The translations under genes and the position numbers were made by a program. Below the pieces are notes generated by a model, which saw only the letters and a list, made by a program, of their open reading frames with translations, was not told the origin of the DNA and made no database searches. A stretch of 64,000 nt of DNA from Alphaproteobacteria bacterium (GTDB lineage Bacteria; Pseudomonadota; Alphaproteobacteria; Micavibrionales; Micavibrionaceae), in assembly GCA_021775915.1 (NCBI GenBank), contig JAJFGW010000005.1, positions 1 through 64,000 on the forward strand, given 5' to 3'. Position 1 is the stretch's first letter; every line of letters begins with the position of its first letter. Positions 1 through 16,364 of this stretch are shown here, one piece after another.

Positions 1-3000
1 TCTTTGTGCCGCCACTGCCGCTCAGAACGGTGTTAAGAGTTCCCGTTGTAATAGCAGCACCCGCATTAGTACCTACAGAGTTTTCCCCAAGGAACATATT
101 GCCGCTGGTGTAATTCGTTGACGCATCGGAGAGATCGTTGATCGCGCCACCGCCGCCGCCGCCAATCATGTCGGTCCACGCACCGTTTTCAATCGCGCGG
201 AGCTTATTGGTCGTAGAGTTGTAACGGATCATCCCGTTCAGCGCGACACTCGCCGCAGGCTCCTGCGCGGTTGTGCCTTTGGAGACAACAAACCCGCCAT
301 TATTGCTGATGTAAATAATCCCGGCCTGTGTCAGATCACCTTTGATGATGTCACCGATATTGAGTTCGTTGCTGGCTGTAATAACGCTCTTTTGAGTATT
401 ATACCCAATCAGAATATTGTCAGTACCGCTTGTCGCAAGGTTACCGGAGATACTTCCCAAGAATGTATTGTTAGCACCTGTGGCTAAAGTACCCGCATTT
501 GTACCTATATAAGTGCTATTGTTCGCCGTTGTGTTTTGCAGTCCGGTATTCGTACCAATAAAGGTGTTAAAGTCTCCTGTCGTGGTCAAACCACCAGCAT
601 CCCATCCCATAAAGGTATTACTAGCGCCCTCTGTATTGGTAGCACCAGCTGCATGCCCCATAAAGGTGTTAAAGCTCCCTGTTGTATTGGCGTTACCAGC
701 GGCACTACCTAGGAAGGTATTGCTGATGCCTGTCGTACTTGCGCCAGAATTTTGACCCAAGAACATATTGTTGCTGGCGTAATTCGTCGCCGCATCGGAG
801 AGATCATCAATCGCGCCGCCACCGCCGCCGATAAGAGCGCCGCCGGAAACAAACCGTACCCAGTCCGCCGCCGTGGTTGAATAAACTTCATAGGCATCTG
901 TTGTGCTGTTAAAGCGGAACATACCGTCCGCGCCTGCTGGCTGTTGTGCCGTGGTTCCGGCAGGAACATGAATAGCTGACGTTCCTATGATCTGAATAAC
1001 ACCCGCCGCCGTCAAATCACCGGTGATTTTGTCGCCGATATTAAGCCAGTTGCTCGTCGTTGGTGTCGGCGTATCAACGTTATACCCGAGCAAGATGTTA
1101 TCCGTACCGCCTGTGATACTATTCCCGGCCTGATAGCCGATGGCCACGTTATTGGCAACACCGGATGTAGCGCCATCCACACCCTGCAAGGCACGGTACC
1201 CCATCACTACGTTATTATTACCGGAGCTACTGTACTCCATCGCTTCCAGACCAATGACGACATTATCAGCCCCCGTTACACTGTCATGCATGGCATAACG
1301 ACCCATCCCTGTATTACCACCCTGTGTAGTCGACGACATAATGCTGTGTCCTACGCCGGTGTTATACCAGCCGGTTGTCGCGCGGAGGGCAGAACCCCCT
1401 ATCGCCGTATTGGAATGTCCCGTTACGTTTAAAAGAAGGGCATCGCTCCCCATCGCCGTATTACCAGTTCCCGTCGTCGTACTCGAGCCCGCAGCATTTC
1501 CTATAAAGACACTGTGCACAGCTGATGTAGCCGCGCCACCTGCCGAAGAACCGACAAAGGTGTTGGCAAGACCCGTCAAAGCAGCATCGCCGGCCCGGTC
1601 ACCAATAATGACATTGTAGCTGCTTGTCGCATTTTCACCGGCCCGGTGGCCGATATAGGTATTGCTTTCCTGATTTGTCAAAGTCTTGCCGGCAAACTGA
1701 CCAATTATGGTATTTCTCCGGGCCCCCGCTATAAAGTTCAGCCCTGCATCCTGACCCATATACATACTGCCGTCTGCGAAGTAATCCGTCTGCGCATCGG
1801 AGAGGTCGTCAATCGCGCCGCCACCGCCGCCGAGGACATCAGTCCACGCGCCGTTTTCAATCGTGCGGAGTTTGTTGGTTGTGGAGTTGTAACGGATCAT
1901 ACCGTTCAGCGCGACACTCGCCGCAGGCTCCTGCGCGGTTGTGCCTTTGGAGACAACAAACCCGCCATTATTGCTGATGTAAATAATCCCGGCCTGTGTC
2001 AGATCACCTTTGATGATGTCACCGATATTGAGTTCATTGCTGACATTACTGGCACTGACGAGAACGCCTTGTCCGATCAAAATATTACTGTCACCGGTTC
2101 CAATAACTGTTGCACCGTCGTCAGCCCCCTGACCTAAAACAACGTTGCTGCTGCCGGTTGTAAGCCCCGCACCTGCATTCTCCCCGACAAGCAGGTTGAA
2201 TCCTCCACTGGTTGCACTATCCCCTGCAGCGTCGCCGATATATGTGTTCCCTGAACTCGTATTCGAAAACCCGGCACTATTACCAATCATCGTGTTTTCT
2301 GTACCAGTTAGATTGCTGGCGCCAGCAGATTTTCCGACAAAAACATTCCCGCTGCCGGATGTAGCTGCTGTCCCGGCGTCCTTACCGATAAAGACGTTAT
2401 CTGCAGCCGTCAACGCCGCATCACCGGCATTGTGACCGATAATCACGTTGTCTTGTGCTGTGTTGGTGGCGCCACTTCCGGCGTCATGACCGATAGAAAC
2501 ATTGCGTGACGCGGTGGCGGCTGTGTAGGCCGCGCCCTTACCAATCGCGACATTCTCAACACCTGTCGTATTATTGTTACCGGCATCAAGACCGACAAAA
2601 ACGTTGTCCGTCCCTGTGGTTAACTGCCGTCCAGCCCGTGAACCCAGAGCGGTGTTGTTATCACCTGTCAGGCTGTTCCCCGTAAGCGATTGCCCGGCTT
2701 TTGTTCCGATTAGAGTATTGTACTGAGCACCATCATCCAGCCATTGTCCGGCCTGATGACCCATGGCAACGTTTTCGATACCGTCAGTGGTTACGGACCC
2801 TGACGAGACACCAACAAAGGTATTCGAACCACCCGTTGTTAAACTGTACCCTGCATCCGTCCCTATAAGTGTGTTGGCATTAGAGGTGGTTAAGACACGA
2901 CCGGCATTCTTACCCAGCGCGGTGTTAGCGCTACCCGTTGAGCTGCCGCCGGCCGTTTGACCGAGGAATACATTGCCACTCGTGTAATCTGTTGCCGCAT

Positions 3001-6000
3001 CGGTGAGTTCGTCGATGCTTGTCGCGCCGGCACCACCGGAAGACAGAAGCGTGCGCCATGTTGTGCCTTCGGCATCATAATATTCAACCACATCAGTAGA
3101 GGCGGTGTTGTTGTAACGCAGAAGACCCTCTTCACCAGTCGGTCTTTCAGTCGTGTTGTTACCAACAGGAATGCGCAACGCACCCGTGCTGCTTATATAC
3201 GTCACACCACCCGCCGTCAGATCACCGGTGATCAGATCGCCGATATTGAGTTCGTTGGAGGCTCCTACCGCGCTGGCAATTACTTCGTGGCCAATCAGAA
3301 TATTGTCCGTACCCGTGGTTGTGGCGCCAACGCCAACAGGACCATACCCGGCACCCATACCCAGGAAGGTATTGTTGTTACCTGTCGCGTCCGCCCCGGC
3401 GTTACTCCCGACATAAACACTGTCAGCACCACCGGCGCTGTTGAGTCCCGCACCGCCACCCAAGAAGGTGTTATTGTCACCAGTCGTACTAAACTTCCCG
3501 GCAACCGCCCCAAAGTAAGTATTTCCGGATCCTAGTGTGTCCTGCCCCGCGCTGCTACCGAAATAAGAATTGTTGTTACCCGCCACATTATCCGTCCCTG
3601 CGCCGGTACCAACAAAAGTGTTGGATGTCCCCGCTATATTGCCGTCGCCGGCCAGATAACCAATAAAGACACTAAAGTCTGCCGTGTTCACCAATCCGGC
3701 ATCCTTACCGATCAGAACGGAACCACTGCCCGTCGTCATGGCATTACCGGCGTTATAACCGAGGAAGACGTTGTCATTACCGGACTCTAAATTCTGCCCG
3801 GCTAGACCGCCGAGAGCGGTATTCCGTAAGCCAGTTGAGGACACGGTATCCGGATTCCCGTGCAAGGCAAATGGTCCAACCGCCACGTTATTGGCAGACC
3901 CGGCACCCGGCACGAAATAACGTAAAGCCTCATTACCAAACGCCGCACTGTAGTCGGCCAATAGGTTGTTCTCAAGCGCCCGATATCCGCTCGCTGTGTT
4001 ATTATTGCCTGTTGTGTTGTCTTGAAGCGCCCAAAACCCGCTCGCCGTGTTTGACCCTCCCGCTAAGTTAGATTTAAGCGCCCGATACCCGGTCGCCGTA
4101 TTATTATCGCCCGTTGTGCTACTGGTAAGCGCCCGATACCCGGTCGCCGTATTATTATTGCCTGTACTGGCATTCAAAGTGTCCGGGCCGAGAGCAACGT
4201 TACCTCCACCGGTCGCGCTCGCCCCAGCGCCCTGCCCAAGATACACACTACCGCTCGTGTAATTCGTCGCCGCATCGGTGAGTTCGTCGATTGTTGTTGC
4301 GCCCGCACCGCCGGAGGAGAGTAGGGTGCGCCATGTTGTGCCTTCGGCATCATAATATTCAACCACATCGGTGGAAGCCGTATTATTATAACGCAGCAGA
4401 CCTTCTTCGCCCGTTGGACGATCGCCTGCGTTATTCCCAACCGGAATACGCAATGCGCCGGTACCACTCACATAAAGAATACCTGCGCCAGTCATGTCGC
4501 CGTAAATCGTGTTACCGATATTGAGGTAATCGCTTGTTGCTGCGAGCGGTACATCCGCGCTTTTACCGATGATAATATTGTTGCTACCGGTCGCACCCGC
4601 TATATCATAAGCAAAGGCTCCAATCGCAACGTTAAAGTTTCCTGTCGCGTTCACCCCAGCCTGGCTACCAAAATAAGCATTTTCATCACCGGCACCGCTA
4701 TTTCGACCTGCCGCGTAGCCAAAGAAAGCGTTATCAGCGCCGCCCACACTTGTCCTCCCTGCGCTATCTCCAAACATGGAGTTCTGATCACCCGTTTCAA
4801 GATCGCCGGCCTGATTACCAAAATAAGAATTGTTGCCACCTGTTACATTAGCGGAACCAGCCGATACGCCCATAAAGGTGTTGCCGGGACCTGATGTATT
4901 AGAACCACCCGCGTTCTGTCCTACAAAGACATTATAGCTTGCGGTATTCACATCCCCGGCACCGGAACCTATCAGAACGGTTTCAATTCCCGTCGTCATG
5001 GCATTACCGGCGTTATAACCAATAAACACGTTGTCATTACCGGTTGTCAGGTTTTGTCCTGCCAGACCACCGAGGGCCGTGTTCTGAATACCGTCCGAAA
5101 GTCCGGCAGCACCCTGCAGGGCACTCGCCCCAATCGCGACGTTATAGGCATTACCTGCCGGTGAAGCGAATTGCCGCAATGCGAGCGAACCAAAGGCTAC
5201 ACTATTGCTTGCATCCGTGTTCTTCCACAGCGCCTGATAACCGTTGGCCGTATTGCCGGCCCCTGTTGTGTTGTCTATCAGTGCCTGATAACCGTAGGCC
5301 GTATTGCTGGCCCCTGACGTGTTGTTACCCAGAGTATTGGAGCCTAGCGCAACATTGCCTGTGCCGGTGTTTGAAGCACCCGAACCTTGACCCAGGAACA
5401 TATTGCCGCTTACGTAATTCGTAATCCCGTCGGTGAGTTCGTCGATGGAGGTCGCACCCGCGCCGCCGGAGGAGAGCAGGGTGCGCCATGTTGTGCCTTC
5501 AGCATCGTAATATTCAACAACGTCGGTGGAAGCCGTATTGTTATAACGCAGCAGACCTTCTTCGCCCGTTGGCCTTTCAGTCGTGTCGTTACCAACAGGA
5601 ATGCGCAAAGCGCCTGTGCTGCTAATATATGTCACACCACCCGCCGTCAGATCACCGGTGATTAAATTACCGATATTGAGTTCGTCATTGGCACCGACAG
5701 CAGTGGCGAGTACATCCTTACCGATTAAAATATTGCGGGAGCCTGTTGTGAGGGCCCCCACACCACCACCAGCTACATCATACCCGGCGCCCATACCAAT
5801 CAGAACATTGTCATCGCCGGACGTTACACTGAAACCAGTGAATTCGCCAAGAAATGCATTGTCATTCGCACCTTCAAAACTGCGTCCGGAACGGTGGCCA
5901 ATAAAGGTGTTGTTGTTTCCCGCGACAGCGCTAGCGCCAGTGCCGCCGCCGGCAAGATAACCCAGGAACGTATTGTCACTGCCTGCTGTGTGATCCCCGG

Positions 6001-9000
6001 AGAAATGTCCGATCATGGTATTTTGCGTTCCTGCTACGTTTTCCTGACCGGCCTGGTTACCGATATAAGTATTGTTGTCTGCGGTTGTATCCTCACCGGC
6101 CCTGTAGCCAATAATGGTATTGCCTTCTCCTGTCGTAAGCGACAACCCTGCCTGGGTACCCAACAGAGTGTTAAAGCTCCCTAGCGTTAAATCTCTACCA
6201 GCCAAATAACCAAAGACTGAGTTGTGGAGACACTCCCAGGCCGGGCCGGTTGTATCACAGGCAGCGCTCATGCTAGACAAGACATCGCCGCCCAGTCCGG
6301 TATTACCTGACCCGTTTGTACCGTTCCCGACACCTGTGCCAAGGAATATGTTGTTGCTCGTGTAATTCGTCGCCGCATCGGTGAGTTCATCAATATTCGT
6401 TGCGCCTGCGCCGCCGGAAGATAAAAGCGTGCGCCATGTTGTGCCGTCAGCATCGTAAAATTCAACCACGTCACTTCCAACAGGCGTTGTGTTATAGCGC
6501 AACAACCCGGCTTCAACCGCTGGCTGTTCGCCCGTCGTTCCAACAGGAATGCGCAGAGCGCCGGTACTACTTATATATGTCACACCACCTGCCGTCAGAT
6601 CACCGGTGATGAGGTTGCCGATATTGAGTTCGTTGGAAGCTGTTGTCGTGCTTTTTTGAATATTATTCCCGATGATAATATTGTCATTACCTGTTGTGCC
6701 AAGATTACCGGCAGAACTACCAATAAAGGTGTTCCCGCCGCCGTCAATATTGGCAAAACCCGCATCACCGCCAACGAAGGTGTTGTTATCAGCTATCGTG
6801 GTATTGGCCCCCGCATCATAACCAATAACGGTATTATGAATTCCTGTCGTATTTTTGTTACCAGCAGCAAGACCTACGAAGGTATTCCAGTCTCCAGTCG
6901 TGTTGGCCCAGCCCGCGGACACGCCAACAAAAGTGTTTGAATCTCCAGTTGTATTTCTTCTGCCCGTCTCAGAACCGATAAAGGTATTGCCTGCTCCGGT
7001 ATTGAGGGGATCATTTCCGGACAGATTCCCGACAAAAGTGTTTTGTAACTGTGTTGTCAGAGCCAACCCGGCGTCTTTACCAATCATGATGCTACCGCTG
7101 GCAGTTGTGTGTGCTGCACCGGCGTTGTAGCCCATAAAGACGTTGTCATCACCGGACTCTAAATTCTGTCCGGCAAAATGACCCAGAGCTGTATTCTGAG
7201 TACCGGTTGAAGACACCGCATCGACATTCCCCCGTAAAGCTTCCGTTCCAATCGCCGTGTTACTTCCTGTACCGACGAAGTATTCTAAGGCGTATTTTCC
7301 GAGCGCGGCATTGTTACCGCCGGTGACATTGTTAAGACCTGCGTAATAACCGACATAGGTGTTGTTGGCACCGGTTGTTGTCTTTTGACCGGCCCATGTT
7401 CCGACGGCGGTATTCGTGCTACCGCTCGTGTTTTCGAAACCTGCCTGATAACCGAGGAAGGTGTTGTCAGCGCCACCTACATTCTTCATGCCCGTCTGGT
7501 GCCCGACAAACGTATTAAATCCGGCTGTTGTTAATTCCCCGGCACGAGAACCGATCATCACATTATCACTGATTGTTGTCAGCGCCGCACCGGCGTTATA
7601 ACCGATCAGAACGTGGTCATTACCGCTCGTCAGGAGCGTACCGGCATGGGTACCAAGCGCAACGTTCCGAGCTCCCGTTAGATTTTGCTCGAGAGCGGAA
7701 TGCCCGAGCCCTGTGTTATCTGTCCCTGTTGTATTTTTCCAAAGAGCAAAGGAGCCAAAGGCTGCATTTTGACTTCCTGATGTATTGTCTCCCAGAGCAA
7801 TATTACCCATGGCTGTGTTGTTAGAACAATCGCCTGCGGCACAGACAGTATCCAGCGATCCCAACGCACCTTCACCCAGCGCGACGTTGCGTATACCTTC
7901 TGTCGCAGCGTTCCCGGCACTCTGCGCAAGAAACACATTATTGCTCGTGTAATTCGTGGCCGCATCGCCGAGATCGTCGATGACAACACCACCGGCGCCG
8001 GAGGTAATAATATCGGCCCACGCTCCACCCTGATAAGCCTCGAATTTATCGACGTCGCTATTATAGCGGAACATACCGTTTTCAGGCACGCCCGGGCGCT
8101 GCCCCGTTGTACCGACATTCATCATTAGCGCGCCGGTGCTTTGCAGGCGGATCAGACCCTGCGTATCGAACTGCATGATGTTCGTTGTCGCCGTTAAGCT
8201 GTCATCATAGAAAGCAAAATCGAGCGTATCGGTTTCGGGATTTAGCGTGAAGTAATCAAGAGGGTCTGTGAAGCCGTTCGTATCTGTTAACTGAAGACTG
8301 CCATCACCGCCGAGAACCCTGAGCGTACCGTTGCCGCCATTCAGATCAATGCCGATATTTCCGGCAGCGTCATAAATATATTGCCGCCCGGAGCCATCGA
8401 CAATCTGGTTAAACTGGAACGACGCCGCGCCGAGATCATTGATCATCTCCAGAAACTCGCCATTGTCTGTGGAGTTTTCAATCGTCGCCACATAATTACC
8501 ATTCGTCGCACCGCCACTGACATAAAGAAGCGTGGATGGTGCCAGTGTACCAATCCCGACATTGCCACTATCTAGTATCGTCATCCTCGTTCCATCATTG
8601 ACGAAATCAGCCGCGGTCATCGTCCGTGCGACATTACCCGTGCTGGGGTGAAGTATGAAATGCATGGCGCTTGAGCTATTGGTGATATACGTACCACCAG
8701 CATCATTCGAGCCCATGGCCTCCATGTTCCAGAGGTTGGTATTAAAGTCCCAGAATGCATTATGGCCGACGAACATGCGGTCAAAGCCCGTGTCCGCCTC
8801 CAGCATGTTTTGTAAAGTGACACCGCCGTTAGCAGCCCAGTCTGTTACAATACGAAGACCATGGTTTTGGTAACCAGCGACAGTGGTATCACCGTAAATC
8901 TCAAGCTGGCTTCGCGGTGTCGTTGTGCCGATTCCGACCAACGGCGAACCGGAATTATAATGAATAATGTCGCCCGCGCCCGCTGTCCAAAGCCCGCCGC

Positions 9001-12000
9001 CGCCAGCTGCAATGCTCGCCGCGGTGAAACAGTCATTCCCAAGCTCATCACAATATTTGGTCGCGCCCGCAGGACCTTCAACATCGAGAAAAAGCTGTCC
9101 GCCTGTGCCGATGTCAGGTGAGATGTCACCAATGCCAAGATTGCCTGAACTGAAGACCATCTGACTGTTGACGTTATCTGTGCCGAAAAGTATATCACCT
9201 GTGCCAAGCGCACCCGCAAGTAATGCCAGCGTTGTGTCAGAGGCAATATTTGCTCCGTTTGCGCTGCTGGTAAACCAAATCTCGGTCCCGGTGTGATTTA
9301 CAATTCTAACAAGGCCATCGTTATCGACTGTAAACTTATCACCATCCCCAACGGTCAAAAGGCCTGTCGGTGTGGAATCACCAATCCCAACTTTACCGTC
9401 GCCTCTAACCACGAACAGGTCACCGGCGTCATTTCCACCCGGCGATGCATCAGAACGTATTTGTAAAAGATCCCCTGTCTGGGCGGCAAGCGCCTGAACA
9501 GCAATACCGTACGAACCTGCATCATATGGTATAACGCCCACCCGTATTTCGGTCCAATCCGGCGTAGCCCAACCTCCAAATTCCGCATGCCTTAGACCAA
9601 AATGGGCCTGCGTATCACCAGAACCTGAGTCATAAGCAACCCGAAGTCCGTCAGCCGCATTCCCTGCTGCTTCTATCCTGAAGAGATCACGACTTGCCGT
9701 TGCGTCATGATTGATTGTAAGCATCCCGCCCGGCGTACTCGTCCCAATCCCCAAACTATCCGTTGCCTTGCTGTAGAAGAAAATCGTGTCCGTGCCCAAA
9801 ATCCCGCCGGAGTTAAACAGCACTTCGCCATCTGCCCCCGGTGCAGGTGTAGCGCCTCCCGCGACAGTCGCGGCAGTGAAACAATTGCCGCCGAGTTCAT
9901 CACAATATTGTTTCGCACCGATTTCGCCTTCGACATCGAGGTCGAGAATTCCGCTTGGTGCTGTTTGCCCGGCTGGAATGGTTGGATCAATCACCAATCG
10001 TCCACCGGCCAGAAGCATGGTGTTGGTTGTGGCCAGGTTAACCGCACTCTGATCACCCATGAAGATACCGAAGGAGCTATTTTGAGAAACTTGCGGGTCA
10101 ACACCGGCAGGAGCGCCAAGACCAAAGGCTACAGAGTAATCACCGCCAGCCGTGACCTCTTGCCCAAACGCGACACTTCTTTGCCCGCCTGCCGTGGTAT
10201 TAAGCCCCATCGCAAAGCTTTCATTATTGCTCGCCGTTGTGCCATCACCAAGCGCAACACTGCCCGAACCGCTTGCCGTCGTGTTAAAGCCCATGCCGAC
10301 ACTGTAATTTCCTATACTCCCATTATCCCAAGCCCCACCATTCACATTACCCGCGCGGAAAGCAGAACTTTCATGATCGAAGAACATGCGCGTTCCAGCA
10401 CCACCGGCAGGAACTGAATCAACACCTGTATGCGTACCTACAACGAGGAAGTCACCACCGGAAGTGTGCAAAAGAGCACTTGGGTTTGTTGTTCCAATAC
10501 CCAGATTTCCGGCAGAGCCAAAGACAAAATTTGCATCCGTCCCGAACACGCCGCCGGAGTTAAAGATCATTTCGCGATTAATTCCCGGCGCTACGCCACC
10601 GCCGCTGGAAACACTCGCCGCGGTGAAACAGTTCGCGAGATTTTCATCACAATATTTGAAGGAACCAACGCGCGGGTCGCCGCCGGCATCCGTATCACCC
10701 AAGAGTGTGTCGCCGATATTGAGGTAGTTACTGGTTGTTGCCAGCGGTGTATCAACATCATAGCCGATCAGGATATTGTCATCACCCGTTGTGATGCTGT
10801 CCCCGGCCAGCGCGCCAAGAGCTGTATTACGCTGACCGTCTGAAACACCATCAACACCAAGCAGTGCATTGGGGCCAAGAGCAACGTTATAAGCGTCACC
10901 GGCTGGTGGATTGAAGTATTGTAAAGCAAATTTACCTACGCCTACGCTATTACCTGCCACCGTGTTTTTGTTACCGGCCGTTAAGCCGACAAAGGTGTTA
11001 TTACCTCCCGTTGTGGTGTCGCTACCAGCCCATGAACCGACCAGAATATTATTTTGCGCTCCCAAAATACTAGCACCAGCCTGATTACCAATGGCGGTAT
11101 TGTTGACCCCTGTCGTAACGGACGAGCCAGCTAAATTACCAAGCAACGTATTACCCCCACCGGACGTAATAGCATCGCCAGCGCTATCACCCAGAGTAGT
11201 ATTGTCTGTTCCGCTTGTAACAGTCGCCCCTTCATGCCCGAGGAACATATTATTGCTCACGTAATTCGTCGCCGCATCGCCGAGATCGTCAATATCAATC
11301 GCGCCAGCCGCGCCGCCGAGATTAACCCAGGCACCGTTCTCGTAGAACTCCATCAGATTATCAGTGCTGGAATAACGGATCATACCGTGTTTCGGTGCCG
11401 CCGGACGCTCACCCACCAGACCAGCAGGTGTCCGCAACGCGCCCGTCCCGACAACTTCGATCGTCCCGGTCAGCATATCACCAGTGATGACATCACCGAT
11501 ATTCAGTTCGTTATCAGCATCAACACCGCTTGTCGTGACATTATATCCGATGACGATGTTATCATTGCCGTCTTCAATGTTTGCCCCGGCCAGACCGCCA
11601 ATGGCAGTATTACGCACCCCAATTGACGAAACACCATCGGCATTTCCGTTCATTGCCAAAAACCCCAATGCAACATTATGCGCAGCCCCCGCAGGTGGAT
11701 TGAAAAAACGTAGCGCATTAAGTCCGATCCCCGTACTCCCATCTCCAGCTACATTAGCAAGCATGGCATAGGTACCGAGCGCTGTATTATCATCCCCTGC
11801 CGTATTATCCTGAAGCGCCTGATACCCAACTGCCACATTCTGGGCCCCAGCTGCATTCGCTTGCAAAGACTGAGAACCGAGTCCGACATTAAACGCCCCT
11901 GCGCTTGTCTCATTTCCGCCATCGAGGAAAACGCTATTATTAGCATCCACCAAAAGCATCCGCCCGGCGGAGGTAAATTCAAATCCGGTGGCCGTGCCAA

Positions 12001-15000
12001 GAATGCCATTAGAATTAAAAAGAATTTCACGGTTATTTCCGGGTGCTGCACCGCCGCCGCCAGAAACACTCGCCGCAGTGAAACAGTTCGCGAGATTTTC
12101 ATCACAAAATTTGAAAGAACCAACGCGCGGGTCGCCGCCGGTGGAGTTTTCACCGAATAATGTCCCGCCGATATTGAGGTAATTGCTGTCGGTTGGATTG
12201 GGGACGTCAATGTTATAGCCGATCAGGATATTATCATCACCCGTGGTGATGCTATCGCCGGCCAACCCGCCAAGAGCTATATTGTTCACACCGTCGGATA
12301 CGCCAGCAACACCCCGCAACGCGCCTGAACCAAGCGCAACATTATAGGCATTTCCGGCTGGCGGGTTAAAATTACGCAGCGCCTGAAAACCAATTGCAGT
12401 ACTGTTGCTTGAGTCCGTGTTGTCGCGCAGGGCTTCAACACCAAATCCTGCGTTTGATTGTCCTATAGTGTTAGAATTTAAAGACCGAGTGCCGGTTGCT
12501 GTATTATTTTGGCCCGCCGTATTGTTAGTCATAGCCAAATAACCAATAGCCGTGTTGGCAAACCCGACATCGTTGATATCAAGAGCGTTCGGGCCAAGAG
12601 CAACATTATCGCCGCCGGTCGTAATCGCTGCACCGGAATTTTGACCAAGGAACATATTGTTACTGGCATAATTCGTCGCCGCGTCGCCGAGGTCATTGAT
12701 AACGATACCGCCGCCACCTGCTGTGATGATGTCCAGCCAGCTTCCATTCTGGTAAGCCTCGTATTTATTCGTGACCGTGTTATAGCGCATCATACCGTCA
12801 ACAGGGACAAGCGGACGGTTTGTGCCGTCACCGCGCGGGAAGAGAATTGCGTCTGTGCCGGCAACGTCAAGGGCAGCTTCCGGCGCTGCCGTGCCAATAC
12901 CCAGACTTCCCGTCGAGCGCATGTAAACCAGCCCGGTGTCTGCGCCCATCGCGCCATTGGAATTAAACAAAATCTCGCTGTCATTGCCCGGAATACCGAC
13001 CGCGCCGGTGAAGACATCCTCGGCGGTGAAACAGAAACTATCAACCTCGCTACAGAATTGCTGGGCACCGACCCGGCCTTCGACATCAACCGTCAATCCG
13101 CCATCCGGCGCAATAAAGCCTGCCGATGTTAAATCCGGATCAATAATTAATTTACCACCCGCCAACACCATCGCGTTTGGTGTGGCGACAGAAATGCCAG
13201 CCTGATCGCCCATAAAGACGCCAAGAGATCCTGCGCCCGTGACTTGCGGCGCTGCGCCCGCCGTCGTACCTAAACCAACTGCCATTGAATTTGTTGCGCC
13301 CGCCGCGACAACGGCCTGATTACCCAGCGCGACGCCGGCCGTTGCCCGTGCCTCTACTTGCGTACCAAGCGCTATCGCATCTTCGGTTGTGGCCAAAGCG
13401 CGATCACCGGCGGCAAAAGCGTTCTGTCCGGTGGCTTGAACATCCAGACCAAAGGCCGCTGAATCCTGCCCCATGTTTCCGTCGTCCCACTGCGTCCCCG
13501 TCACCGTACCGGCGCGGAAAGACCCGGCGCTCGGGTACCAGATAAAGCGCGTTCCCGCACCTTCGAGGGCAGAAGAGAATGTCAGGCCTGCACCTTCTTT
13601 GACAATATATGAAGAATTCTCATAGGCGATAAAATCGGGGAATTCATCCCACACACCACCAACGCCGCCACCGCCGCCGCCGGATGTACCAATCGTTTCC
13701 CAGAAGCCGGTATTCACGGAACAGATCAAAAGCTCGTCCGCGCCGTTATAAGCAATCATACCACTTTCCGGACAGGCCGCCCCGGCGGTATAGAGCGCGC
13801 TACTGCGTAATCTTATCTCACCCTGAATATCAAGAGTTGCGGTCGGATTCAAAATACCAAGACCGACATCTCCAGCGGAATCAATGGACAAACGAGCATT
13901 ATTATTCGTCCGTAATTCCAGCCCGTTCCCGGTGCTGGAATAGTAAAGCCCTTCGTCTTTCGCAACGCCATCACCATCAAGACGGAAAGCGTTGGCATAA
14001 ACATCATTGGTAACATTCAAATCACCGGCGGTAATATCTACACCCTGTGCATCGTCAAACGTTACAGCGCTATTACTATCGCTAATATTGCCCTGTAAAT
14101 CAGAGGTGCCTGTCACGGTCAGACTCCCACCAAGGCTTGTTGCAAAAGCAGCGACCGTCAAAGTATTATTCACCTGCACCGCACCGCCAGCCGTTACTGC
14201 CGCAACGGTAGAAAGCCCGGTTACACCCAGAGTATTATTAATTTGTGTTGCACCGCTTGCCGTTAACGCTGCCGTCCCTGTAACACCAAGCGTTGAAACG
14301 CCGGTCACGCCTAACGTACCACTTATATCCGCATTATCATTAACATCAAGAGCAGCATTAATTGTGGCCGTTGTACCGCTAACCGTTAAATCGGTGCCAA
14401 CTATGACATTGCCGGTTGTTGTCATGGCAGGAACAGTCATAAGACCGCCTACATATTTGAAAACGCCGCCGGGAGCAGCGTCAAACGCTCCAACCGTGGT
14501 CGAACGGAACTGAATATCACCTATAGCACTACCCTGCGCACCACTACCGGCCGCTGCGCTGGCAACATTGACCCATGCATTAACATCACAAATTTCAAGC
14601 AACTCTGCCGGCCCGGCAGTATTACGCCGCAACGAACCTTGGTTCGCGCCATTACAAACTATACTACCCGGCGTTAGATCGGTCGGCAGCAAGAGCAAAC
14701 TGTCCGCGCCAAATTCAAGACTTGCATTATTCAAACCGAAAGCACCACCAGCGAGATTACCACCGCTTTGGAAATTAGCGGCTCCTGTAACTTCAATGTC
14801 TTTATCAATTGTTGCCATTCCGGGGTTGCCACTTTTCAGACTCCACAAACCGCCGGAGGCTTGAACAGCACCGGCGTAGGTGAGATCAATGACAAGGTCA
14901 TCGCCAGCTTTGGTCAGATAACCCGGATCAGCCGCACAACTTGACTGGAAATTACGGTCAGGTCCGGCAGATATAATAGCAATGGAAACTTTGTCTTGAA

Positions 15001-15541
15001 CACCTGCAGGGTCACCAGCTAAAGCCACATCAGTATTGGCATTAAGGAAAGTAGAACACCCCGAAGCTACGACGGTACCGTGATCCCACGCACAATACCC
15101 GTAATTCGTACCCCAAGGGTCTTTCTTTGAAGATCCAATTTCGTTCGGTAAACAACCACCGCCACCAGGAACTGGTCCATCACAAGACCCCGCCCCCGTA
15201 TTGAGCGGGCCAATAGGCTCAACATAACCATCGGCATCACAGTCACCGCTATCAGTTTTCTGAGACGCTTCCAGCATCGCGAGCTTATGGGCGATTTGCA
15301 TTTGGGCGTCGGCTTTGGCGGTTTGGTTGAGTTTCATCACGGTACCCATCGGGCCGCGCATTAAGGTAGATGTGGCAACACCTACAACACCAACAAGGGC
15401 AACGGCACCAAACAAAGTGAAAAACACATTACCGCTTTCGCCCCAGCGGGAAGAACGGCCAGAGGCAGAACGCACTGTAGGGCGATCATTGCGATCACCC
15501 TTCCGTTTATTCCATCTGTGTTTTAAATAGCCAAGTATCAA
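1..15541 (-). CDS. Giant repeat-rich surface fibre/adhesin-like protein (C-terminus outside window)
   Basis: One minus-strand frame stays open from a TTG at 15541 to the left edge, at least 5,180 codons. I checked the frame at ten places and it never shifts. A start at GTG 15475 is also possible. Residues 1-37 are basic. Residues about 38-60 form one membrane segment (starts NVFFTLFGAVALVG), suggesting an N-in anchor with the rest outside. A Cys-rich region follows (about 95-200), then blocks with the phage tail fibre-like pattern FNSNG...LGIGT..P.A.LDV, then long arrays of Gly/Asn/Thr-rich repeats such as NNTATGYRAL and NTFVGLAAG. Ten linkers of the type DLSDAATNYTSNNMFLG split the arrays. 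The family makes beta-structured trimeric fibres; a surface adhesin or host/prey-binding fibre is inferred. No passenger-release or YadA anchor is visible because the C-terminus is missing. Confidence 0.85.
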   Translation of the reverse strand, partial: MILGYLKHRWNKRKGDRNDRPTVRSASGRSSRWGESGNVFFTLFGAVALVGVVGVATSTLMRGPMGTVMKLNQTAKADAQMQIAHKLAMLEASQKTDSGDCDADGYVEPIGPLNTGAGSCDGPVPGGGGCLPNEIGSSKKDPWGTNYGYCAWDHGTVVASGCSTFLNANTDVALAGDPAGVQDKVSIAIISAGPDRNFQSSCAADPGYLTKAGDDLVIDLTYAGAVQASGGLWSLKSGNPGMATIDKDIEVTGAANFQSGGNLAGGAFGLNNASLEFGADSLLLLPTDLTPGSIVCNGANQGSLRRNTAGPAELLEICDVNAWVNVASAAAGSGAQGSAIGDIQFRSTTVGAFDAAPGGVFKYVGGLMTVPAMTTTGNVIVGTDLTVSGTTATINAALDVNDNADISGTLGVTGVSTLGVTGTAALTASGATQINNTLGVTGLSTVAAVTAGGAVQVNNTLTVAAFATSLGGSLTVTGTSDLQGNISDSNSAVTFDDAQGVDITAGDLNVTNDVYANAFRLDGDGVAKDEGLYYSSTGNGLELRTNNNARLSIDSAGDVGLGILNPTATLDIQGEIRLRSSALYTAGAACPESGMIAYNGADELLICSVNTGFWETIGTSGGGGGGVGGVWDEFPDFIAYENSSYIVKEGAGLTFSSALEGAGTRFIWYPSAGSFRAGTVTGTQWDDGNMGQDSAAFGLDVQATGQNAFAAGDRALATTEDAIALGTQVEARATAGVALGNQAVVAAGATNSMAVGLGTTAGAAPQVTGAGSLGVFMGDQAGISVATPNAMVLAGGKLIIDPDLTSAGFIAPDGGLTVDVEGRVGAQQFCSEVDSFCFTAEDVFTGAVGIPGNDSEILFNSNGAMGADTGLVYMRSTGSLGIGTAAPEAALDVAGTDAILFPRGDGTNRPLVPVDGMMRYNTVTNKYEAYQNGSWLDIITAGGGGIVINDLGDAATNYASNNMFLGQNSGAAITTGGDNVALGPNALDINDVGFANTAIGYLAMTNNTAGQNNTATGTRSLNSNTIGQSNAGFGVEALRDNTDSSNSTAIGFQALRNFNPPAGNAYNVALGSGALRGVAGVSDGVNNIALGGLAGDSITTGDDNILIGYNIDVPNPTDSNYLNIGGTLFGENSTGGDPRVGSFKFCDENLANCFTAASVSGGGGAAPGNNREILFNSNGILGTATGFEFTSAGRMLLVDANNSVFLDGGNETSAGAFNVGLGSQSLQANAAGAQNVAVGYQALQDNTAGDDNTALGTYAMLANVAGDGSTGIGLNALRFFNPPAGAAHNVALGFLAMNGNADGVSSIGVRNTAIGGLAGANIEDGNDNIVIGYNVTTSGVDADNELNIGDVITGDMLTGTIEVVGTGALRTPAGLVGERPAAPKHGMIRYSSTDNLMEFYENGAWVNLGGAAGAIDIDDLGDAATNYVSNNMFLGHEGATVTSGTDNTTLGDSAGDAITSGGGNTLLGNLAGSSVTTGVNNTAIGNQAGASILGAQNNILVGSWAGSDTTTGGNNTFVGLTAGNKNTVAGNSVGVGKFALQYFNPPAGDAYNVALGPNALLGVDGVSDGQRNTALGALAGDSITTGDDNILIGYDVDTPLATTSNYLNIGDTLLGDTDAGGDPRVGSFKYCDENLANCFTAASVSSGGGVAPGINREMIFNSGGVFGTDANFVFGSAGNLGIGTTNPSALLHTSGGDFLVVGTHTGVDSVPAGGAGTRMFFDHESSAFRAGNVNGGAWDNGSIGNYSVGMGFNTTASGSGSVALGDGTTASNNESFAMGLNTTAGGQRSVAFGQEVTAGGDYSVAFGLGAPAGVDPQVSQNSSFGIFMGDQSAVNLATTNTMLLAGGRLVIDPTIPAGQTAPSGILDLDVEGEIGAKQYCDELGGNCFTAATVAGGATPAPGADGEVLFNSGGILGTDTIFFYSKATDSLGIGTSTPGGMLTINHDATASRDLFRIEAAGNAADGLRVAYDSGSGDTQAHFGLRHAEFGGWATPDWTEIRVGVIPYDAGSYGIAVQALAAQTGDLLQIRSDASPGGNDAGDLFVVRGDGKVGIGDSTPTGLLTVGDGDKFTVDNDGLVRIVNHTGTEIWFTSSANGANIASDTTLALLAGALGTGDILFGTDNVNSQMVFSSGNLGIGDISPDIGTGGQLFLDVEGPAGATKYCDELGNDCFTAASIAAGGGGLWTAGAGDIIHYNSGSPLVGIGTTTPRSQLEIYGDTTVAGYQNHGLRIVTDWAANGGVTLQNMLEADTGFDRMFVGHNAFWDFNTNLWNMEAMGSNDAGGTYITNSSSAMHFILHPSTGNVARTMTAADFVNDGTRMTILDSGNVGIGTLAPSTLLYVSGGATNGNYVATIENSTDNGEFLEMINDLGAASFQFNQIVDGSGRQYIYDAAGNIGIDLNGGNGTLRVLGGDGSLQLTDTNGFTDPLDYFTLNPETDTLDFAFYDDSLTATTNIMQFDTQGLIRLQSTGALMMNVGTTGQRPGVPENGMFRYNSDVDKFEAYQGGAWADIITSGAGGVVIDDLGDAATNYTSNNVFLAQSAGNAATEGIRNVALGEGALGSLDTVCAAGDCSNNTAMGNIALGDNTSGSQNAAFGSFALWKNTTGTDNTGLGHSALEQNLTGARNVALGTHAGTLLTSGNDHVLIGYNAGAALTTISDNVMIGSRAGELTTAGFNTFVGHQTGMKNVGGADNTFLGYQAGFENTSGSTNTAVGTWAGQKTTTGANNTYVGYYAGLNNVTGGNNAALGKYALEYFVGTGSNTAIGTEALRGNVDAVSSTGTQNTALGHFAGQNLESGDDNVFMGYNAGAAHTTASGSIMIGKDAGLALTTQLQNTFVGNLSGNDPLNTGAGNTFIGSETGRRNTTGDSNTFVGVSAGWANTTGDWNTFVGLAAGNKNTTGIHNTVIGYDAGANTTIADNNTFVGGDAGFANIDGGGNTFIGSSAGNLGTTGNDNIIIGNNIQKSTTTASNELNIGNLITGDLTAGGVTYISSTGALRIPVGTTGEQPAVEAGLLRYNTTPVGSDVVEFYDADGTTWRTLLSSGGAGATNIDELTDAATNYTSNNIFLGTGVGNGTNGSGNTGLGGDVLSSMSAACDTTGPAWECLHNSVFGYLAGRDLTLGSFNTLLGTQAGLSLTTGEGNTIIGYRAGEDTTADNNTYIGNQAGQENVAGTQNTMIGHFSGDHTAGSDNTFLGYLAGGGTGASAVAGNNNTFIGHRSGRSFEGANDNAFLGEFTGFSVTSGDDNVLIGMGAGYDVAGGGVGALTTGSRNILIGKDVLATAVGANDELNIGNLITGDLTAGGVTYISSTGALRIPVGNDTTERPTGEEGLLRYNNTASTDVVEYYDAEGTTWRTLLSSGGAGATSIDELTDGITNYVSGNMFLGQGSGASNTGTGNVALGSNTLGNNTSGASNTAYGYQALIDNTTGAGNTANGYQALWKNTDASNSVAFGSLALRQFASPAGNAYNVAIGASALQGAAGLSDGIQNTALGGLAGQNLTTGNDNVFIGYNAGNAMTTGIETVLIGSGAGDVNTASYNVFVGQNAGGSNTSGPGNTFMGVSAGSANVTGGNNSYFGNQAGDLETGDQNSMFGDSAGRTSVGGADNAFFGYAAGRNSGAGDENAYFGSQAGVNATGNFNVAIGAFAYDIAGATGSNNIIIGKSADVPLAATSDYLNIGNTIYGDMTGAGILYVSGTGALRIPVGNNAGDRPTGEEGLLRYNNTASTDVVEYYDAEGTTWRTLLSSGGAGATTIDELTDAATNYTSGSVYLGQGAGASATGGGNVALGPDTLNASTGNNNTATGYRALTSSTTGDNNTATGYRALKSNLAGGSNTASGFWALQDNTTGNNNTASGYRALENNLLADYSAAFGNEALRYFVPGAGSANNVAVGPFALHGNPDTVSSTGLRNTALGGLAGQNLESGNDNVFLGYNAGNAMTTGSGSVLIGKDAGLVNTADFSVFIGYLAGDGNIAGTSNTFVGTGAGTDNVAGNNNSYFGSSAGQDTLGSGNTYFGAVAGKFSTTGDNNTFLGGGAGLNSAGGADSVYVGSNAGADATGNNNTFLGMGAGYGPVGVGATTTGTDNILIGHEVIASAVGASNELNIGDLITGDLTAGGVTYISSTGALRIPVGNNTTERPTGEEGLLRYNNTASTDVVEYYDAEGTTWRTLLSSGGAGATSIDELTDAATDYTSGNVFLGQTAGGSSTGSANTALGKNAGRVLTTSNANTLIGTDAGYSLTTGGSNTFVGVSSGSVTTDGIENVAMGHQAGQWLDDGAQYNTLIGTKAGQSLTGNSLTGDNNTALGSRAGRQLTTGTDNVFVGLDAGNNNTTGVENVAIGKGAAYTAATASRNVSIGHDAGSGATNTAQDNVIIGHNAGDAALTAADNVFIGKDAGTAATSGSGNVFVGKSAGASNLTGTENTMIGNSAGFSNTSSGNTYIGDAAGDSATSGGFNLLVGENAGAGLTTGSSNVVLGQGADDGATVIGTGDSNILIGQGVLVSASNVSNELNIGDIIKGDLTQAGIIYISNNGGFVVSKGTTAQEPAASVALNGMIRYNSTTNKLRTIENGAWTDVLGGGGGAIDDLSDAQTDYFADGSMYMGQDAGLNFIAGARRNTIIGQFAGKTLTNQESNTYIGHRAGENATSSYNVIIGDRAGDAALTGLANTFVGSSAGGAATSAVHSVFIGNAAGSSTTTGTGNTAMGSDALLLNVTGHSNTAIGGSALRATTGWYNTGVGHSIMSSTTQGGNTGMGRYAMHDSVTGADNVVIGLEAMEYSSSGNNNVVMGYRALQGVDGATSGVANNVAIGYQAGNSITGGTDNILLGYNVDTPTPTTSNWLNIGDKITGDLTAAGVIQIIGTSAIHVPAGTTAQQPAGADGMFRFNSTTDAYEVYSTTAADWVRFVSGGALIGGGGGAIDDLSDAATNYASNNMFLGQNSGASTTGISNTFLGSAAGNANTTGSFNTFMGHAAGATNTEGASNTFMGWDAGGLTTTGDFNTFIGTNTGLQNTTANNSTYIGTNAGTLATGANNTFLGSISGNLATSGTDNILIGYNTQKSVITASNELNIGDIIKGDLTQAGIIYISNNGGFVVSKGTTAQEPAASVALNGMIRYNSTTNKLRAIENGAWTDMIGGGGGGAINDLSDASTNYTSGNMFLGENSVGTNAGAAITTGTLNTVLSGSGGTK
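175..376 (-). repeat. Internal coding repeat, linker type A, copy 1
   Basis: This linker segment of the giant gene is almost the same DNA as 1843-2044. The two are identical over 134 bp (234-367 against 1902-2035), with about eight differences over 194 bp. It encodes a linker including the stretch SNNGGFVVSKGTTAQEPAA. The offset of 1,668 bp is a multiple of three, so exchange between copies keeps the frame. Confidence 0.9.
1843..2044 (-). repeat. Internal coding repeat, linker type A, copy 2
   Basis: Partner of the copy at 175-376. Identity is far above that of the surrounding repeats, which points to recent duplication or gene conversion inside the giant gene. Confidence 0.9.
2995..3256 (-). 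repeat. Internal coding repeat, linker type B, copy 1
   Basis: Encodes a linker containing TGALRIPVG, EEGLLRYNNTASTDVVEYYD and TTWRTLLSSGGAGA, ending in DELTDAATDYTSGNVFLG. Close copies lie at 4270-4531 and 5425-5686, and a more diverged one near 6373-6634. All spacings are multiples of three. The linker breaks up the Gly/Asn repeat arrays. Confidence 0.85.
4270..4531 (-). repeat. Internal coding repeat, linker type B, copy 2
   Basis: Same linker as at 2995-3256, shifted by 1,275 bp. The protein core (EEGLLRYNNTASTDVVEYYD) is unchanged while silent third positions differ. Confidence 0.85.
5425..5686 (-). repeat. Internal coding repeat, linker type B, copy 3
   Basis: Same linker, 1,155 bp further along. 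A fourth copy near 6373-6634 has diverged: the core becomes RYNTTPVGSDVVEFYDADG. Confidence 0.85.
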
Positions 15542-15915
15542 GTCAGCCCCCGAAACTCCCTATATTGTGTACATGCACATACGTTAACAATAATTATGTA
15601 TATTATTAATTTTTTCACGAATTCGTTAATATATTGCCTACTAACGGTTAACAGAGTCTTACCGTCCCAAAGTATTTTTCGTTTATTTTCAATGAGTTTC
15701 GGAAATTCTGAGATTAATATCCCAAAATTATTTAAACTTTTATGCTTTTTGCGCCGCAACATTGCGCAAATTGAGCGGAGTAACATACAAATTCTTTCGT
15801 CAGGATGAAGAGAAAACGGCAGAACGCCGCCCTCTTTAGAGAAGACGCAAATATTCACTACTATCCTACTGATTTATTTAAGAAGAATCAAGATACTCAC
15901 AGATTTATACACATA
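15542..15915. other. AT-rich region upstream of the giant gene
   Basis: About 370 bp of clearly AT-rich DNA without a convincing gene. On the minus strand a possible promoter (TTAACG, 17 bp, TATAGG at 15587-15559) sits just before the TTG start, and a GGGGG at 15551-15547 could act as ribosome site. This would leave almost no leader, so the promoter is only tentative. A 106-codon minus-strand frame here (15538-15858) has no ribosome site and no recognisable features. Confidence 0.4.
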
Positions 15916-16034
15916 TTTTAAGGTTTTAAAGAACGCACTAACGCGCGGCGTGCCGTCGCACGCTCTTGGAGCGTTGTTCATACAAGCCCGCGACTGCGGG
16001 GCGTCCGGTTAGGACGTTCTTTAAAACCTTAAAA
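15916..16034. repeat. 119-bp element with perfect 20-bp terminal inverted repeats and inner hairpins
   Basis: The left arm TTTTAAGGTTTTAAAGAACG (15916-15935) is exactly complementary to 16015-16034. The 79 bp between them are GC-rich and hold further short palindromes: GCGTGC/GCACGC (about 15948-15963), ACGCTC-TTG-GAGCGT (15960-15974) and CCCGC-GACT-GCGGG (about 15988-16000). The first two overlap and exclude each other. The shape fits a branched RNA or cruciform, or a small non-autonomous mobile element. It ends 6 bp past the stop of the gene at 16041-16364 and lacks the T-run of a normal terminator. Confidence 0.65.
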
Positions 16035-16040
16035 GAGTCC

Positions 16041-16364
16041 CTAAATCATCATCCGCAAAACAACGCTGTCTTCCTTTATATCAACGGACTTGTTCGCTTT
16101 TTTAGGAAAAGGGATACCGAGTGACCGGCAATAAAGCATCAATGCCGCCGCAAGAAAGTCACGACTATAGTCAATTTTATGAGTCATCTCCTCCTGCGGG
16201 TTGGAAAGCTCAAAACTTAACTTCTTGTCATCATCGGGATCGATATTAATTTTATCAATTTGCCCCGGCGGCGGGCGCTTCATGTCCCTTTGCATGCACA
16301 AAGAATAAAGCGCCTTATAGGCTTCTTCGTATGTAAAAATAATTCGCCGGTCTTCGCGTGGCAT
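16041..16364 (-). CDS. Hypothetical protein, 107 aa
   Basis: A soluble, charged protein that begins MPREDRRIIFTYEEAYKAL. It has no signal peptide or membrane segment and no motif that I can name. Its acidic middle (IDPDDDKK) and C-terminal helix-like part look like those of a small globular protein. It is divergent from the exoD gene with about 60 bp between them, so the two may share a promoter region. The 119-bp palindromic element lies directly behind its stop codon. It reads like a conserved small alphaproteobacterial protein, but I cannot assign a function. Confidence 0.6.
   Translation of the reverse strand: MPREDRRIIFTYEEAYKALYSLCMQRDMKRPPPGQIDKINIDPDDDKKLSFELSNPQEEMTHKIDYSRDFLAAALMLYCRSLGIPFPKKANKSVDIKEDSVVLRMMI

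Follow-up and report, generated by a model that had tools for sequence, protein, structure and literature searches.

A palindromic element of 119 bp in a genome of the Micavibrionaceae (Alphaproteobacteria) is probably a relict, REPIN-like inverted pair of an alphaproteobacterial REP-like repeat. It lies in a window of 64,000 nucleotides, the whole stretch of DNA that was analysed. In the repeat unit in question, the tetranucleotide CAAG would precede a pair of short neighbouring hairpins whose loops, GACT and GGTYA, hardly vary; units of this kind appear to be dispersed over the Alphaproteobacteria. Membership of the window copy in this family is likely but falls short of certainty, as the search pattern that led to the family derives partly from the window copy itself.

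The limits of the element and its perfect 20-bp inverted ends (Table 1) agree with those given in an earlier first-pass annotation of the window, as a direct check of the arms confirmed; when extended, the arms reach 27 nt at 93%. The element is the only perfect inverted repeat in the 64 kb with arms of at least 14 nt and a spacer of up to 150 nt, and the longest arms in 20 first-order Markov simulations of the window measured 10 to 16 nt. The same annotation had described a GC-rich core without coding potential, and the element is indeed non-coding, with 66% GC in the core versus 25% in the arms. Read on the opposite strand, the left half is a diverged copy of the two hairpins of the right half. 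The right half satisfies the loop rule of the family exactly, namely a GACT hairpin followed within 3 nt by a GGTYA hairpin, and the left half has diverged in both loops. The halves differ in their stems and each keeps the order of CAAG, first hairpin and second hairpin, which is as expected of two inverted family units. In many family members CAAG likewise precedes the first hairpin, two positions further in.

Table 1. Coordinates of the palindromic element, its neighbours and related modules (positions in the window unless a locus is named)
Feature	Position	Strand	Remarks
Whole palindromic element	15916..16034	.	119 bp, single copy in genome
Left outer arm	15916..15935	+	AT-rich, perfect complement of right arm
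Right outer arm	16015..16034	+	
CAAG ahead of right module	15983..15986	+	from reading the sequence
Right hairpin 1	15987..16000	+	stem CCCGC/GCGGG, loop GACT
Right hairpin 2	16002..16016	+	stem CGTCC/GGACG, loop GGTTA
Left hairpin 1	15949..15962	-	stem CGTGC/GCACG, loop GACG (diverged from GACT); model match E 0.18
Left hairpin 2	15934..15947	-	stem CGCGC/GTGCG, loop GTTA (one base shorter than GGTTA)
Short spacer hairpin between both modules	15961..15973	+	CGCTC-TTG-GAGCG
107-aa gene upstream of element	16041..16364	-	homologues in 13/33 other genomes searched
Giant reading frame downstream of element	2..15541	-	runs off window
G021 module, in frame in Mfd homologue	L003 1498-1534		same place as L131 4654-4690
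tRNA-facing form-A modules (examples)	L068 5332-5368; L114 5979-6015		loci set L050-L131

Folding predictions for the element are extreme. As RNA with its flanks it folds to -64.7 kcal/mol (z -6.9), a value as low as which was reached by 0 of 200 shuffles; the DNA fold has a z of -8.1, and the RNA of the minus strand has a z of -6.7. For the complete element, the predicted RNA ensemble gives the first right hairpin a probability of about 0.18, the second right hairpin about 0.01 and the spacer hairpin about 0.67. Most short stems are unlikely in this ensemble because both halves also pair with each other, and the several short stems listed in the first pass are thus present as sequence but mostly improbable in an RNA of the full element. 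No T-run follows the palindrome on either strand, as had been noted before, and an intrinsic terminator was rejected on this ground. A terminator scan returned one hit within the left half, with a weak tail, and 4 hits in 1.2 kb versus 1.2 expected. The window has no Rfam match at the gathering score and no tRNA according to ARAGORN; the element with its flanks (L002) has no Rfam match by E-value up to 1.

The first hint of a relative was obtained without any pattern, as a 32-nt match at 88% in a single genome, G021 (E 1.2e-4 for one genome), which is the only DNA match to the element in a search of 57 further genomes from the same order and family. The matching module is located within a gene for a homologue of Mfd. 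Like the window copy, it comprises two adjacent hairpins with the loops GACT and GGTYA, and where the stems of the two copies differ, they differ on both sides. Alignment to an Mfd of known structure places the module at about residues 389-401, within an unaligned stretch (298-433) that is about 50 residues longer than its counterpart in solved Mfd structures. An insertion in this stretch of the G021 protein is likely, though not proven. REPs of other families are reported within repair genes (PMC3733652).

The positions shared by the window copy and the G021 copy in mfd provided a search pattern. Scanning 84,980 species with it yielded 82 stretches, of which, by record title, 79 belong to Alphaproteobacteria and one to Streptomyces, and two carry no class; the classes were assigned by genus name. 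Each module consists of a hairpin with the loop GACT and, within 3 nt, a hairpin with the loop GGTYA. The sequence behind the second hairpin follows one of two forms, form A in 52 of 83 modules and form B in 25, with neither present in 6. These shared flanks, CAAG on one side in many hits and form A or B on the other, mark the pattern hits as a family. Among 131 structural matches, in which overlapping loci are counted repeatedly, a C-G pair closes the GACT loop every time, and this closure was not required by the scan.

The stems of the family covary; for the stems of the element itself, a covariance analysis had been proposed in the first-pass annotation. For the model, the hits in Streptomyces (L059) and Rhizobium multihospitium (L123) were dropped as chance, together with identical rows, and the genomes of these two hits contain 0 model matches each. 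In the 61 distinct modules that were left, with the window copy excluded, 549 of 549 stem cells are paired. All three pairs that the pattern leaves free have changed on both sides, in a total of 32 cells, and 0 of 500 shuffles reached as high a total; the slid controls of this test fail. The bare count of such double-changed pairs (3) was matched in 49 of 500 shuffles. A further stem, the third, lies beyond the pattern and also appears to keep its pairing in 42 form-A members, the rows kept from 52 after removal of similar ones. At four pairs of this stem, 7 to 14 sequences are double-changed and 5 to 8 are broken or gapped, in a structure predicted from the same alignment. Rfam searches of 8 of the 82 pattern loci returned tRNAs only, and searches of L208, L209 and L073 by E-value up to 1 returned only tRNA, 5S and sub-threshold matches. 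As for genomic context, a crude ORF caller placed 16 of 81 modules inside ORFs of at least 150 aa, several of them surely spurious, 16 between co-directional, 11 between convergent and 6 between divergent ORFs, and 32 at locus edges.

The element stands between two genes of the minus strand. The order on this strand is the 107-aa gene, 6 bp counted from its stop codon, the element, a short stretch containing a DnaA-box-like 9-mer, a stretch conserved in G002 and the giant reading frame. This frame exceeds 5,180 codons and has a hydrophobic segment among its first residues; no protein family scored over cut-off in a Pfam search of 12000-15541 or in NCBIfam searches of five pieces. Genes of the ExoD and DsbB families lie on the opposite side of the element, on the plus strand. 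In the congeneric genome G002 the 107-aa gene and ExoD are both present, as are the conserved stretch and the beginning of the giant frame, and the hairpin is missing. The distance from the stop codon to the shared stretch is 73 nt in G002 versus 28 nt plus the element in the element's own genome, and G002 hence offers no clean empty site. No direct repeat of 2-9 nt was found at the borders of the element. In 9 relatives with enough sequence, the 400 nt that follow the 107-aa gene contain no perfect inverted repeat of at least 10 nt, and a conserved hairpin at this place was rejected on this result; in G001 and G003, for which no 107-aa gene was detected, the same search over 1500 nt next to exoD also gave none.

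The 9-mer TTATACACA at 15905-15913, which resembles the consensus of a DnaA box, directly adjoins the element, and G002 has a similar 9-mer at roughly the corresponding position. Within the window TTATNCACA occurs once, beside the element, with 2.1 expected per window by chance. A replication origin was rejected, as the GC skew keeps its sign around the element and such a 9-mer is expected by chance. These observations bear on the proposal that the element is a DNA structure, for instance a cruciform beside the DnaA-box-like site, that insulates or regulates the giant gene or nearby replication. An insulator of the giant gene was among the ideas of the earlier annotation; the element does lie between the 107-aa gene and the giant gene, and the adjoining 9-mer with its counterpart in G002 would suit a role in replication. 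Nevertheless, this proposal is very unlikely: in G002 the gene order is the same and the stretch ahead of the giant gene is retained although the palindrome is absent, so that the element is not a required part of the giant-gene locus, and neither the chance frequency of the 9-mer nor the unchanged sign of the skew favours it.

Several results connect the window copy to the family. A family model built without this copy matches it with an E-value of 3.6e-6 in 64 kb, a value that is not independent, because the pattern used to collect the family came from the window copy and G021. The second-best match in the window is the left half of the element on the other strand, which follows partly from the element being a palindrome. 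A loop-and-pairing rule, written after the fact, finds a single site in the window, 84 sites across 80 family loci and 0 in 303 kb of S. meliloti pSymB; simulated sequence that matches the window in composition gives 8 sites in 342 Mb, and sequence that matches the core gives 6 in 213 Mb. Behind the second hairpin of the window copy stands TTCTTTAAAACC, which is neither form A nor form B, as in 6 of 83 modules, and no family match extends beyond the core of the element.

This missing family sequence outside the core is what would be expected if the palindrome were a locus-specific 3' hairpin of the 107-aa gene that arose locally, serving as an mRNA stabiliser or transcription boundary and resembling the family by chance or convergence. 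The single copy, the high stability and the position immediately past the stop codon fit such an origin as well. It is nonetheless unlikely, since it would have to produce two inverted modules, each in the family order and with near-identical loops, such a double hairpin arises 8 times in 342 Mb of simulated sequence, and a comparable hairpin is missing at this place from the 9 relatives that have the 107-aa gene.

The element is alone in its own genome (2.45 Mb, 51 contigs), where both a DNA search and the family model return nothing else; the model search, in which 150 of 1844 candidates were scored, gave it an E-value of 1.4e-4 over the genome. The multiple copies that the first pass had suggested looking for are thus not found in this genome. 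Exact matches to the 16-nt core of the arms occur inside the element only, across 34 genomes, and with up to 2 mismatches the own genome has 9 matches, 2 of which are the element's own arms, compared with 3 for a reversed control. This excess, together with AT-rich ends formed by perfect 20-bp terminal inverted repeats, would agree with the remnant of a MITE or other transposon that is defined by these repeats and carries the core as cargo. Such a remnant is very unlikely, however, as no second element was found, exact arm matches are confined to the element among 34 genomes and no target duplication was found. MITE was accordingly rejected as a candidate, on the lack of a second copy of element or arms and of a target duplication. 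The MITE-like label still came nearest among the three guesses of the first pass, in that the core very probably belongs to a family of palindromes with many copies in other Alphaproteobacteria; with a single copy here, no target-site duplication found and arms without exact matches elsewhere in the 34 genomes, the element resembles a REP or REPIN, not a transposon derivative.

The family has a patchy distribution, in which the window copy stands isolated and would be a minor member. The model matches 14 of 16 genomes reached through pattern loci, the two exceptions being the genomes of the dropped hits. Amorphus coralli has at least 56 copies, with part of the candidates scored. The module is present in 4 of 143 relatives and, under strict filters, in 18 of 385 genomes of a class-wide sample, with the own genome included in both counts. 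In the class of Streptomyces 0 of 98 genomes match, a null that shows little, with no known positive in the set. In all surveys of more than 40 genomes weak matches are lost to the strict filters, and the scoring covered only some of the candidates. The 303 of 1683 kb of S. meliloti pSymB that were searched contain short repeated stretches and three weak model matches (E 0.1 to 0.63), none of them convincing. A Y1_Tnp domain (PF01797) was found in 2 of 12 genomes searched, and in neither the own genome nor Amorphus coralli; this search of 12 genomes provided no transposase candidate for the family.

Tandem arrangements also occur (L075 40-195, L094 7923-7959, L207 12120-12480). Caenispirillum salinarum contains a tandem array of form-B units of about 119 nt, and a contig from a viral collection carries a similar three-copy array. 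A phage origin of the family was considered and rejected: there are 2 stretches from viral_contigs, and the array in one of them is Caenispirillum-like, not letter-identical over the 360 nt compared.

An association with tRNA genes is evident in part of the family. Of 83 modules, 17 lie within 150 nt of a tRNA, compared with one or two expected by chance in a rough estimate from 31 tRNAs in 610 kb. Fifteen of the 17 face the tRNA 3' end at 36-58 nt, and all of these are form A. Two plasmid relatives found with blastn (L208, L209) are placed one beside a 5S gene and one between two tRNAs. By eye, the upstream flanks of form A in L054, L067, L083, L098 and L130 resemble a decayed tRNA 3' end (TGGTGGAGCT...CATCGAACC), and the repeat unit looks as if it carried the 3' half of a tRNA. 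These relations raise the possibility that the double hairpin is a class-wide structured element working as RNA, with the window copy being a stray inverted pair at the 3' end of a protein gene. A branched regulatory RNA, another guess of the first pass, may likewise apply, as stems covary across the family. If the double hairpin works as RNA, its GACT loop could contact its GGTYA loop, GAC pairing with GUC or, through a wobble, with GUU, and the complement of form A behind tRNA genes, once behind 5S, would be the 3' trailer of a stable RNA. This explanation is tentative and rather unlikely.

Under the preferred reading of a relict REPIN-like pair, the pair with its AT-rich arms would have arrived next to the 107-aa gene, 6 bp past its stop codon, once the lineage had split from the congener G002. 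It was probably copied or moved in trans by a putative enzyme acting on single-stranded hairpin DNA, or the mobilisation may lie in the past. If the message of the 107-aa gene reads into the element, it would end in a very stable RNA hairpin, at about -57 kcal/mol for the minus strand. Enterobacterial REPs slow 3' exonucleases. A transcribed hairpin would do the same here, setting the 107-aa message apart from the giant gene. Against the preferred reading stand the isolation of the element in its own genome, the small number of relatives with the module and the minor share of the local hairpins in the RNA ensemble.

The double-hairpin repeat family is apparently undescribed and is set apart from CGTC REPs and CIR by their descriptions. 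No description of it was found in the literature searched, which mostly excludes subscription papers, and four family sequence strings are absent from the same literature. Copies may have been counted without being described, because a REP-counting tool of 2025 lists thousands of REPs in Erythrobacter and Hyphomonas genomes (PMC12306157). If the interpretation is correct, a REP-like family with its own anatomy, favouring the 3' side of tRNAs and having no evident transposase, has been overlooked across Alphaproteobacteria. For CGTC REPs, the published description treats the manner in which REPs spread when they have no transposase of their own as an open question (PMC3733652). This question becomes testable in a genome such as that of Amorphus coralli, which carries 56 copies or more and in which the search detected no Y1 transposase.

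Several known types of repeats resemble the family in part. RIMEs and other rhizobial repeats are likewise structured intergenic repeats of Alphaproteobacteria (PMC2573895), but the searched 303 kb of pSymB, within which RIMEs were not singled out, has no convincing family match (best E 0.1). CIR repeats of Caulobacter and other Alphaproteobacteria are similar in length (about 110 bp), class-wide occurrence, two-armed structure and a GAN-type loop at the stem end (PMC2229807). They differ in carrying the methylation site GANTC, whereas the family loop reads C-GACT-G and never GACTC in the 131 structural matches; the hairpin loops of the element contain no GANTC, which by description sets it apart from CIR.

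CGTC-tagged REPs of Alphaproteobacteria are short palindromes, arranged mostly as inverted pairs and mostly behind reading frames (Di Nocera et al. 2013, PMC3733652). Some lie in repair genes, some pairs stand inside longer palindromes and no dedicated transposase is assigned to them (PMC3733652). Each is a single hairpin with a stem of 8-9 bp almost always starting with A-T, a CGTC tag and a CCA-like tail (PMC3733652). In contrast, as compared by description, the window family has two adjacent GC-rich hairpins of 4-5 bp with constant GACT and GGTYA loops and no CCA tail; set against that description, the sequence of the element shows neither the CGTC tag nor the A-T-started stem of 8-9 bp nor the CCA-like tail. 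REPINs and GTAG REPs are associated with RAYT transposases (PMC3116915), in contrast to the own genome and Amorphus coralli, which lack a Y1 transposase, and no GTAG-type tag was recognised at the foot of the unit in the element. The likeness lies in the overall design, as REPINs are also non-autonomous inverted pairs of REPs that form one long hairpin.
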